Below are positions 12,719 through 15,102 of a DNA stretch of 40,358 nt, one piece after another (the first letter of the stretch is position 1; the number at the start of each line of letters is the position of its first letter). The notes below the pieces were generated by a model that was not told the origin of the DNA, ran no database searches, and saw only the letters and a list, made by a program, of their open reading frames with translations. Source of the DNA: a virus; the IMG/VR virus record IMGVR_UViG_3300011271_000013, positions 1 through 40,358 of that record. The stretch is one strand, 5' to 3'. A program made the translations under genes and the position numbers.

Positions 12719-13405
12719 TTAGTGCGCGGTAGCCCCTACAGGCTTCTGCCGTGGCGCAACCTTCCCTGCCTGCGTAGCGGAAAGCGTAGCCTTGGCTTCA
12801 CCCTTCGCCCGGGGCTTCGGCGGAACCTTCGGCTTTGCCTTCAAGCTTTCATCGCCGGCCTTATCGCCGAGCATAGCTGCGACGTTCAAGCCCTTGATGG
12901 GAAGCTCTGCACGGGCCTTGAGGTTCTCTTCCGCTCGCTTGTAGAGATCTGGGTTACCCGATAGGACTTCTTTCGCAAAGGCTGTCAATTCCTTCGCGTC
13001 AAAAGCCGAGATCTTATACCCATTGCTCCGCAAGGTATCCTTCACCAGAGCCTTTGCAAGGCGCATGGCCTCTGTTTGCGTAGCCCCAGTGCGCTTGGAC
13101 GTGGCCTTCGCACCCTTGAGATTTCCGTCATACATCGCTTGCACAGTGCGCTGCGCTTGTTCCACAATCTCCGCGGTACGCCTGACCTTATCCTCGCCTT
13201 CAGCTTTGGTGATGCCCACAGCGATCTTGGACATCCCCACTTTGTTGACGATCGTTTCGAGGCCGACCGCGAAGATGTATCGAAAGATTTCCAAATCCAA
13301 GATCATATCCGGGTCAACCACAACCGTACCAACGCCACCCTTGAGCTTGACCTCAATAGGGTCAGACTTTTTCGAGGAGGCTTCGCTTGCAACTGCGTCA
13401 GTCAT
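12719..13405 (-). CDS. Hypothetical early protein with basic Lys/Ala/Pro tail, 228 aa
   Basis: The start at 13405 (MTDAVASEASSKKSD) has AAAGGA 8 nt upstream; the frame runs open to 13447. Residues 20-150 appear to be a folded alpha/beta part (IEVKLKGGVGTVVVDPDMILDLEIFRYIFAVGLETIVNKVG), followed by a helix-rich region and a tail rich in Lys, Ala and Pro (LKAKPKVPPKPRAKGEAKATLS), like a histone-type or DNA-coating tail. No family is recognised. DNA binding is inferred only from charge. Confidence 0.7.
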   Translation of the reverse strand: MTDAVASEASSKKSDPIEVKLKGGVGTVVVDPDMILDLEIFRYIFAVGLETIVNKVGMSKIAVGITKAEGEDKVRRTAEIVEQAQRTVQAMYDGNLKGAKATSKRTGATQTEAMRLAKALVKDTLRSNGYKISAFDAKELTAFAKEVLSGNPDLYKRAEENLKARAELPIKGLNVAAMLGDKAGDESLKAKPKVPPKPRAKGEAKATLSATQAGKVAPRQKPVGATAH

Positions 13406-14063: not shown

Positions 14064-14471
14064 CTATATGTCCCCATCGCCATAGATAGTATCAGGCCCT
14101 TTAAGGATTGATGTGGCCTTATCAATCCCCCTCGTGGCCTTGCTCACCTCCGAAGTCTTTAGCCTCTCACAATTTGCTTTCGCGTAAGGCCTAACTCCAT
14201 GCTTCAAGTTATACACAAGCCAGCACTCTGTCCTTTTAGTCTTGCTTGCAATGTGCACATGCTCCCCCACAACCTTGCCCTGTATCGGTGCCAGCCCTTT
14301 AATCCTAACCCTAACCCTGCATCCCATGACAACCTGTGCGCTTCGCAAGTCATGCTCAGCCCTTAGCTTAGCCTCTTGCTGCCGTAGGCCATTTAGCCGT
14401 AACGCTTCGCGTCGCAGCGGATCATCCCGCTTAGGCCCAGGTGTTCCCGGCCTTGCCATCCATCTCGACAT
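14064..14471 (-). CDS. First leftward early gene: basic protein, 135 aa
   Basis: The ATG at 14471 has AAAGGAG 8 nt upstream and lies about 20 nt after the predicted start of transcription from the promoter at 14500-14528. The protein is strongly basic: an N-terminal Arg-rich helix (PLRREALRLNGLRQQEAKLRAEH), then a small strand-rich domain (GCRVRVRIKGLAPIQGKVVGEHVHI) that looks like an SH3/KOW-type barrel, then a Lys-rich end. This suggests DNA or RNA binding. As the first gene behind an operator-bearing promoter it could be a regulator, but no helix-turn-helix is evident. Confidence 0.65.
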   Translation of the reverse strand: MSRWMARPGTPGPKRDDPLRREALRLNGLRQQEAKLRAEHDLRSAQVVMGCRVRVRIKGLAPIQGKVVGEHVHIASKTKRTECWLVYNLKHGVRPYAKANCERLKTSEVSKATRGIDKATSILKGPDTIYGDGDI

Positions 14472-14499
14472 CGGCGTAGCTCCTTTGATTGTACTTACC

Positions 14500-14528
14500 A
14501 GTATAACACAGATCCGCGTCTGTGTCAA
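14500..14528 (-). promoter_or_regulatory. Leftward sigma70-type promoter with palindromic spacer (possible operator)
   Basis: TTGACA (14528-14523) and TATACT (14505-14500) are 17 nt apart reading leftward. The spacer holds a perfect inverted repeat, ACACAGA (14506-14512) and TCTGTGT (14519-14525), separated by 6 nt and overlapping the -35 box. A dimeric repressor bound there would block RNA polymerase. Confidence 0.8.
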
Positions 14529-14545
14529 CCCTAGCATTACCCGGG

Positions 14546-14743
14546 CTCACCCTGATACTCCCTACATCTATGCCTAGTATCATCTCATTTGCTTGTCGTA
14601 GCCGTGGGGGGTACCCCGGGTAGGGTAGTATATAAAGAGGAGAGAGAGAGAGAAGAGAGACCTACCTACCCGGGGTGGGGGGTACGGAGATGGTAAGCTT
14701 ATGTGATGATACTAGGCATAGGGCTAGAGTAAATCAGGGTGAG
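14546..14743. repeat. 198-bp interrupted palindrome with polypurine core
   Basis: Three pairs of perfect arms share one centre of symmetry (between 14644 and 14645): 14546-14556 with 14733-14743 (11 bp), 14568-14584 with 14705-14721 (17 bp), and 14613-14624 with 14665-14676 (12 bp). Between the second and third pairs, 14586-14606 is also largely complementary to 14683-14703, with several G-T wobble positions. The centre is an almost pure purine tract of about 27 nt (14634-14660, GA repeats). It lies in the strand-switch region between the divergent transcription units. It may be a replication origin, a bidirectional terminator or a partition or packaging site. Confidence 0.85.
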
Positions 14744-14764
14744 GGCGATTGTAACATTTCGTGA

Positions 14765-14793
14765 TTGGACCTTTCACGCCGATGTGCTACATT
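14765..14793 (+). promoter_or_regulatory. Rightward promoter candidate
   Basis: TTGGAC (14765-14770) and TACATT (14788-14793) are separated by 17 nt. This would start RNA about 40 nt before the ATG at 14842 and makes the region divergently transcribed. Confidence 0.5.
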
Positions 14794-14841: not shown

Positions 14842-15102
14842 ATGACCATCCTCCCCAACCTTCAGCAAGAGATCGATACCCTCAAGGCAATCATCGCGAA
14901 GCAAACTGAAGCCCTTGCTGCGGCCTCGAAGCCCAAGGCTATCACCCTCAAGGTCTCTGAAAAGGGTGCGCTCTCGATCTACGGCCTTGGTCGCTTTCCC
15001 GTAACCCTCTACCGAGGCCAGATAGAGCGGCTTATCGCTTCGGTGCCACAGATCAAGGCCTTTATCGAGACCAACTCCGCCTTGTTCGCCTCGAAGGACT
15101 AG
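14842..15102 (+). CDS. Small conserved phage protein, 86 aa
   Basis: The start at 14842 (MTILPNLQQEIDTLKAI) has GGAG 9 nt upstream. The N-terminal 35 residues are helical; the rest, ITLKVSEKGALSIYGLGRFP then VTLYRGQIERLIASVPQIKAF, matches a small protein seen in many phages and some bacteria (KVSEKGAxSxYGLGRFPVTLY). Its function is unknown to me. It stands alone between a promoter and a hairpin, so it is probably transcribed early and apart from the virion genes. Confidence 0.75.
   Translation: MTILPNLQQEIDTLKAIIAKQTEALAAASKPKAITLKVSEKGALSIYGLGRFPVTLYRGQIERLIASVPQIKAFIETNSALFASKD

Follow-up and report, generated by a model that had tools for sequence, protein, structure and literature searches.

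An imperfect palindrome of 198 bp, which lies at the switch of gene strands in an uncultured virus, appears to be a DNA-level control element of uncultured podovirus-like phages. The function that we consider most likely, and hold tentatively, is that of a replication origin in which inverted iterons would surround a tip that opens. In the sequences compared here the element is conserved in architecture across a clade of these phages, while its letters diverge quickly. Its anatomy, its conservation, the pairing of its arms at the DNA level and its promoter-like neighbourhood are established by sequence analysis.

The palindrome and its surroundings

The window, by which we mean the whole stretch of DNA that was analysed, is a 40,358-base IMG/VR virus record without end repeats. 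It encodes TerL (phrog_2), a podovirus-type head-tail connector (PF12236), a major capsid protein of the GP7 family and a UvrD-like helicase together with further replication genes. Early and replication genes, most of them on the minus strand, occupy the part left of 14.5 kb, and the terminase and structural genes to its right are mostly encoded on the plus strand, with the palindrome at the switch. A candidate small terminase (TerS) gene, labelled by its position and an HTH-like sequence without a family match, is found about 1 kb right of the palindrome. The features are the following:

14546..14743, no strand: whole imperfect palindrome, 198 bp
14546..14605, no strand: left outer arm, a degenerate 11-bp repeat array in relatives and weakly periodic in the window
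14613..14624, no strand: left half of the inner stem, 12 perfect pairs
14629..14661, plus strand: tip of 33 nt, TATATAAA followed by (GA)n
14665..14676, no strand: right half of the inner stem
14684..14743, no strand: right outer arm, inverted counterpart of that on the left
14500..14528, minus strand: predicted leftward early promoter PL, TTGACA-17-TATACT, with 17 bp between its -35 box and the edge of the hairpin
14749..14768, plus strand: conserved motif TTGTAACATTTCGTGATTGG on the right side of the hairpin, which in relatives is one half of a dyad like ATCACG-N4-CGTGAT
14765..14793, plus strand: putative weak rightward late promoter, TTGGAC-17-TACATT, picked by eye
14064..14471, minus strand: first gene behind PL, its start shifted from 14537 to an ATG at 14471 with AAAGGAG upstream
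12719..13405, minus strand: conserved early gene with a Lys/Ala-rich tail, present in all seven large relatives; candidate DNA-binding protein
14842..15102, plus strand: conserved small protein, 86 aa
15208..15795, plus strand: GIY-YIG nuclease gene near the palindrome

The palindrome in the window is real. Among the inverted repeats of the 40,358 bases it ranks first, with arms of 60 nt and a score of 84 against 37 for the next one, and its folding energy lies far below that of 200 dinucleotide shuffles, with z-scores of -8.4 for RNA of the plus strand, -9.0 for RNA of the minus strand and -7.8 for DNA; none of the 200 shuffles was as stable. An earlier note on this DNA had described perfect arms of 11, 17 and 12 bp that share one centre. 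The script check returned a centre sum of 29289 for both the 11-bp arms (14546-14556/14733-14743) and the 12-bp arms (14613-14624/14665-14676), and the pairing display placed the 17-bp arms (14568-14584/14705-14721) on this same centre. The G-T wobble positions that the note had seen between the arms are there as well (6 G-T and 2 A-C among 81 opposed positions), as is the nearly pure purine centre, which is the inner loop 14629-14661 after TATATAAA. Its statement that the palindrome contains no gene also stands, because the ORF 14064-14537 is better started at 14471 behind AAAGGAG and no gene is needed inside the palindrome.

Some further observations concern the window as a whole. At 821-1921 on the minus strand, a uracil-DNA-glycosylase superfamily domain and a DNA_pol_A_exo1-like domain are joined in one protein, whose match to phrog_17, a phage DNA polymerase family with 1445 positions, covers just positions 543-789; this partial match suggests a split polymerase. 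Between 16000 and 38000 the coding strand of the structural genes mostly has more C than G (skew to -0.24, near zero at about 31-34 kb). The contig ends differ on the same gene map, with the hairpin 3.3 kb from the start in the large record G001 and 14.5 kb from it in the window, and in L043 TerL is found at base 252, so that this contig ends elsewhere on the gene map than the other two. The differing ends suggest circular or permuted genomes. The sole hint of a host is a Terriglobia MAG contig with a TerL that is 59% identical and without a strong hairpin.

Occurrence in related phages

Relatives were collected with TerL and with the 86-aa small protein, which gave 80 and 38 viral loci with many contigs common to both. 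We ran an inverted-repeat scorer, which counts both G-T and A-C as mismatches, on all loci. Out of 119 loci examined, 61 score at least 58, and these reduce to 44 non-redundant hairpins. Four of them have long or coding-like loops (L057, L108, L116 and L068) and were left out of the set of 40 hairpins; for the promoter, dyad and repeat-unit analyses L068, which is at the right junction, was restored to give a set of 41.

In a survey of 52 loci, the window included, that extend 2.4 kb or more upstream of TerL, the best inverted repeat of the locus is mostly found 1.3-2.8 kb upstream of TerL and in a few loci at 3.2-5.7 kb. A long hairpin (score at least 46) is present at the early/late junction in 37 of the 42 relatives with matching gene order and coverage. 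These 42 are what remains of 51 loci after removal of six without the neighbour genes (L041, L042, L047, L078, L079, L080) and three without coverage (L040, L061, L063), and the 37 include L057, where the best repeat is off the expected spot and a second one with score 51 is at it. The five weak loci are L010, L012, L065, L077 and L118. A lack of conservation of the arms in close relatives, which the earlier note had named as grounds against its own reading, is not what these 37 of 42 loci show. In seven of seven further large records (46-50 kb, G020 read in part) the hairpin is the top inverted repeat, with scores of 72-113 against 41-56 for the next one. It is absent from the cultured relatives phiV10, Pseudomonas AF and UFJF_PfDIW6 and from the circular metagenome-derived record MW202637.

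One relative carries a second strong inverted repeat (L050:712-816, score 118) about 530 bp left of the hairpin, with tandem TTGCAAT-like units, which is perhaps another repeat array.

Pairing between the arms

The earlier suggestion that pairing has been kept is borne out by two-sided changes in both alignments of relatives. In the alignment of seven relatives 67.2% of cells are paired, compared with 59.1% in shuffled versions and 38-47% after sliding the partner 1-3 columns along; two-sided change occurs in 47 of 82 pairs (32.1 in shuffles, 19-24 when slid) and the covariation score is 0.310 (0.190 in shuffles, 0.12-0.15 when slid). The second group of four sequences has 74.8% paired cells (72.1% in shuffles, 41-46% when slid) and 17 two-sided pairs (8.9 in shuffles, 3-8 when slid); in each of the two alignments the structure was taken from one member sequence, which biases the comparison against the slid versions. 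In pairwise comparisons 76 of 136 double changes restored the pair, where one third is expected (p 6e-8; the counts are summed over the forward direction of 15 comparisons that share sequences). Pair breaks on a single side are also numerous among the relatives.

If selection acted on an RNA, G-U would be tolerated on the strand of that RNA and A-C would not. Among the 643 mismatches in the 40 non-redundant hairpins there are 125 G-T and 153 A-C on the TerL strand, where the composition of the arms leads to an expectation of 110 and 114. The asymmetry between G-T and A-C has a p of 0.11, and neither strand has an RNA-like bias. With the two kinds of mismatch about equally frequent, the pairing therefore appears to be kept at the DNA level and not in an RNA.

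Repeat arrays in the arms and the simple-repeat tip

When the arms of the 40 hairpins are read inward, identity at lag 11 stands out against Markov shuffles with z-scores of 11.9 and 10.8, followed by lag 22 (6.8 and 6.0) and lag 33 (3.5 in the right arm), all computed as if the hairpins were unrelated by kinship. Within the range 2-30 the best lag is 11 in 23 of the 40 hairpins and 22 in four. The locus's strongest period-11 stretch lies inside the hairpin in 26 of 40 loci and outside it in 14. The repeat unit varies by phage: it is CCTCGATAGYY-like in L020-L023, ACCTCATTAGT in L016, TATCTCAAAGC in L039 and GGCTGGGATAA in L060, often with a YSAT or CAT core and with about 4-5 units per arm. 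In the relatives the sequence periodicity shows arms that are inverted arrays of degenerate 11-bp repeats, a unit of about one helical turn. Taken by itself, the window has a weak 11-bp signal (z 1.3, with lag 6 scoring best; period-11 strength 9.8 in the hairpin and 14.5 elsewhere), and its repeat units were read by comparison alone. An array of short repeated sites, as in iteron-type origins, is accordingly found over the 40 hairpins and weakly in the window by itself.

The tip carries a mononucleotide or dinucleotide run in 35 of 40 hairpins, compared with 29 of 4714 control windows from the same loci. The runs comprise (GA)n, (GT)n and (TA)n, tracts of A or T and a single C-tract, and most of them are sequences known to respond to negative supercoiling by melting or by switching to H-, Z- or cruciform DNA. 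Only some of the tips are AT-rich; those with (GA)n and (GT)n are not especially so. In 16 of 18 tips with a dinucleotide repeat containing G/C, the G-bearing strand is the TerL coding strand (p 0.001, with kinship of the hairpins left out of the count). Triplex DNA, which had been proposed for the purine run of the window, loses its footing in the relatives: the GA run is not kept there, and (GT)n, (TA)n or A-tracts are found instead.

Promoters and neighbouring genes

An outward sigma-70-like promoter is present within 130 nt left of the hairpin in 33 of 41 hairpins and right of it in 3 of 41, with 3.5% of 1490 control windows as background, and the -35 box of the left promoters is often 16-30 nt from the hairpin edge. 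The 11-bp arrays, the rule for the tip and this link to the early promoter are all first seen here and were not part of the earlier note. Its divergent promoters stand in part: the left one is clear, the right one is weak and was inferred by eye, with the rightward candidate not recovered in a promoter scan of the window, and the divergent transcription units are confirmed. Transcription is not divergent in every relative, since some carry the right-hand neighbour gene of the hairpin on the minus strand.

The dyad ATCACG-N4-CGTGAT is found, with at most one mismatch, right of the hairpin in 12 of 41 cases (background 0.8% of 1043 windows), and the version in the window has three mismatches. 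Often the dyad is followed by a weak promoter-like pair and then by a small ORF, which some relatives (L046, L070) lack or carry inverted while keeping the hairpin. The small protein, whose gene moves or inverts around the hairpin and is on the plus strand in the window and on the minus strand at L046:3748-4011 and L070:4306-4680, has a conserved SIYGLGRFPVTLY-like core; among phage records the protein was found only in MW202637 and MW202789. A GIY-YIG nuclease is conserved near the hairpin in many relatives, and its gene was not found in L014, L024, L028, L030 and L032, though the hairpin is kept in them. It recalls Odn of phage ICP1, a nuclease of the GIY-YIG type that is described as cutting the origin of a satellite at the iterons (PMC8263062).

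A proposed replication origin and its alternatives

An initiator-driven origin, which we put forward with some reserve, best accounts for the inverted arrays, the single dominant copy per large record, a tip that seems suited to opening and the position between early and late genes. An origin had been one of the earlier candidates and it stays a live one at this modest level of confidence. A phage initiator would bind the inverted 11-bp sites. In the window, outward transcription in both directions would leave the hairpin under negative supercoiling, upon which the tip, be it (TA)n, an A-tract, (GA)n or (GT)n, may open or the arms may extrude, and replication proteins would load at the opened tip or the extruded arms. 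The inner stem pairs outside the repeats, which favours a real strand-pairing step in the form of cruciform extrusion or a single-stranded hairpin. Iterons, an opening element and transcription-driven supercoiling are given as ingredients of lambda and plasmid origins (PMC5043065).

Several observations speak against an origin, namely the lack of the hairpin in the three cultured phages and in MW202637, the weak 11-bp periodicity of the window, the 14 of 40 hairpins without their locus's strongest period-11 stretch, the (GA)n and (GT)n tips with no marked AT-richness and the relatives in which transcription is not divergent. No initiator was recognised. The nearest conserved early protein (12719-13405) has no family match, and its predicted structure has no PDB fold match at E 0.001; with a mean pLDDT of 74.6 and a pTM of 0.42 for this prediction, we assign it no role. 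In several large relatives the GC skew shifts close to the hairpin, where the strand of the genes switches as well, and left of the hairpin in the window it is near zero; being confounded by gene strand, it was dropped as evidence for an origin.

A bolder form of the origin reading, which we consider doubtful as a whole, would have the origin set by shape and not by letters. An initiator would read inverted sites that are phased at 11 bp and whose sequence drifts freely between phages, and divergent transcription would drive extrusion or opening of any tip that leaves B-form under negative supercoiling. The fast turnover of repeats would then come from an arms race in which recognition of the origin is at stake and GIY-YIG nucleases may be the opponents.

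The main rival is an operator array, in which a phage regulator would polymerise along the inverted 11-bp repeats and switch PL, and the late promoter where present, without a role in replication. PL is the one constant neighbour in 33 of 41 hairpins, often with the -35 box at the distance given above, and the small ORF and the GIY-YIG gene come, go or invert around a hairpin that stays, as such an array would have it. We nevertheless regard it as unlikely, as it leaves the complementarity and covariation of the inner non-repeat stem unexplained, and likewise the simple-repeat tip.

A packaging (pac) site recognised by the small terminase and a mutational relic come next, and both seem improbable. 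The hairpin is near TerL and the TerS-like gene, pac of SPP1 is described with direct repeats (PMC4737164), and contig ends vary relative to the gene map as expected of permuted genomes. The place of the hairpin relative to the terminase is not fixed, with TerL 1.3 to 5.7 kb away (3-5.7 kb in some relatives) and PL as the constant neighbour, and the repeats of SF6 are reported not to direct binding of the TerS DNA-binding domain (PMC4737164). As a relic, the palindrome would be renewed by template switching and the tip repeats made by polymerase slippage, both without selection. The rapid change of the sequence and the presence of simple repeats in the tip are in keeping with this. What speaks against it is that many divergent phages have the hairpin at the same junction next to PL, with a single dominant copy in each large record, and that slippage at the tip is not expected to make 11-bp arrays in the arms.

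An antisense or regulatory hairpin transcript, as had been suggested earlier, would agree with the very stable fold of either strand. We find it very improbable and reject it on the symmetry of wobble mismatches described above, with no excess of the G-U type on either strand, and on the Rfam searches, in which the window has no match at the gathering score and five relatives have nothing at the hairpin and one weak match (E 0.51) elsewhere in L085. Moreover, the hairpin of the window lies upstream of both predicted promoters, PL and PR, and is hence probably outside either transcript.

A partition site of the kind of plasmid R1 parC, which is split in two around a promoter (PMC5016525), shares the repeat blocks that flank a central spacer and is barely credible here, as the arrays are inverted and not direct and no partition genes (parM/parR) occur among the families listed for the window (PHROGs: 25 of 53). 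The bidirectional terminator of the earlier note falls as well: the terminator scan found no short GC stem with a T run at the hairpin, and the predicted flanking promoters point away from it. A mobile element or MITE was rejected on the lack of a second copy in the window's record, the same junction in 37 of 42 loci and one dominant copy in seven of seven large records, and a protelomerase-type hairpin telomere on a centre that is not a perfect palindrome. A retron or reverse transcriptase association was likewise rejected, since no reverse transcriptase is among the Pfam families listed for 57 ORFs of the window (PHROGs: 25 of 53).

If the origin reading is true, diverse uncultured phages start replication at an element that is kept by architecture and not by sequence, and searches by sequence similarity would miss such origins. 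A promoter, 11-bp inverted arrays and a simple-repeat tip would then make a rule by which sites of this kind could be sought in phages from metagenomes. That (TA)n, A-tracts, (GA)n and (GT)n replace one another at one spot would amount to a natural experiment on whether the propensity for non-B DNA is itself selected.

Comparison with known systems

OriL of herpes simplex virus is reportedly placed between divergent genes, and for the inner stem a parallel is said to exist in the pT181 origin, with cruciform extrusion or formation of a single-stranded hairpin. OriS and OriL are described as palindromic origins with inversely oriented initiator sites and an AT-rich spacer, which form a hairpin when unwound (PMC12543377), and the strand-pairing step proposed here is likened to the unwound hairpin of OriS (PMC12543377). 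OriS differs in having three boxes and belonging to an animal virus, whereas the phage element has 4-5 repeats per arm. Where a herpesvirus-type origin has inverted initiator sites around an AT-rich centre, the phage element has inverted arrays around a centre that is AT-rich in part only; the spacer of OriS is AT-rich, and the tip of the phage element may be (GA)n or (GT)n.

The lambda ori and iteron plasmid origins share with our element an array of initiator sites, an opening region and the help of transcription-driven negative supercoiling (PMC5043065). In the portion of this source available to us they are not described as a covarying palindrome of 200 bp (PMC5043065). The tip here, unlike their opening region, is not uniformly AT-rich.

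The repeat unit of R1 parC is reportedly 11 bp, and it is not known to have hairpin pairing. Its tandem repeats form two blocks around a centre, in direct orientation and with a promoter in the centre (PMC5016525). A centromere of this type has direct repeats with parM/parR; the arrays found here are inverted, and neither gene is among the families listed for the window (PHROGs: 25 of 53). The pac sites of SPP1 and SF6 resemble the phage element in having repeats, in their case direct ones, near the small terminase gene, and long inverted pairing is not reported for them in the text available (PMC4737164).

The origin of the PLE satellite of Vibrio cholerae, with RepA_N iterons, is alike in that the iterons contain inverted sub-repeats, and these iterons can change under pressure from the phage GIY-YIG nuclease Odn (PMC7145576, PMC8263062). 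It has three repeats of about 30 bp, and the parts of these papers at hand do not describe a long palindrome with a simple-repeat tip (PMC7145576, PMC8263062).

Our searches of the open-licence literature turned up no phage element that combines inverted arrays of 11 bp with covarying arms and a simple-repeat tip of interchangeable sequence. As far as we found, the combination in a phage element has not been described before, while each of its ingredients is known in origins.
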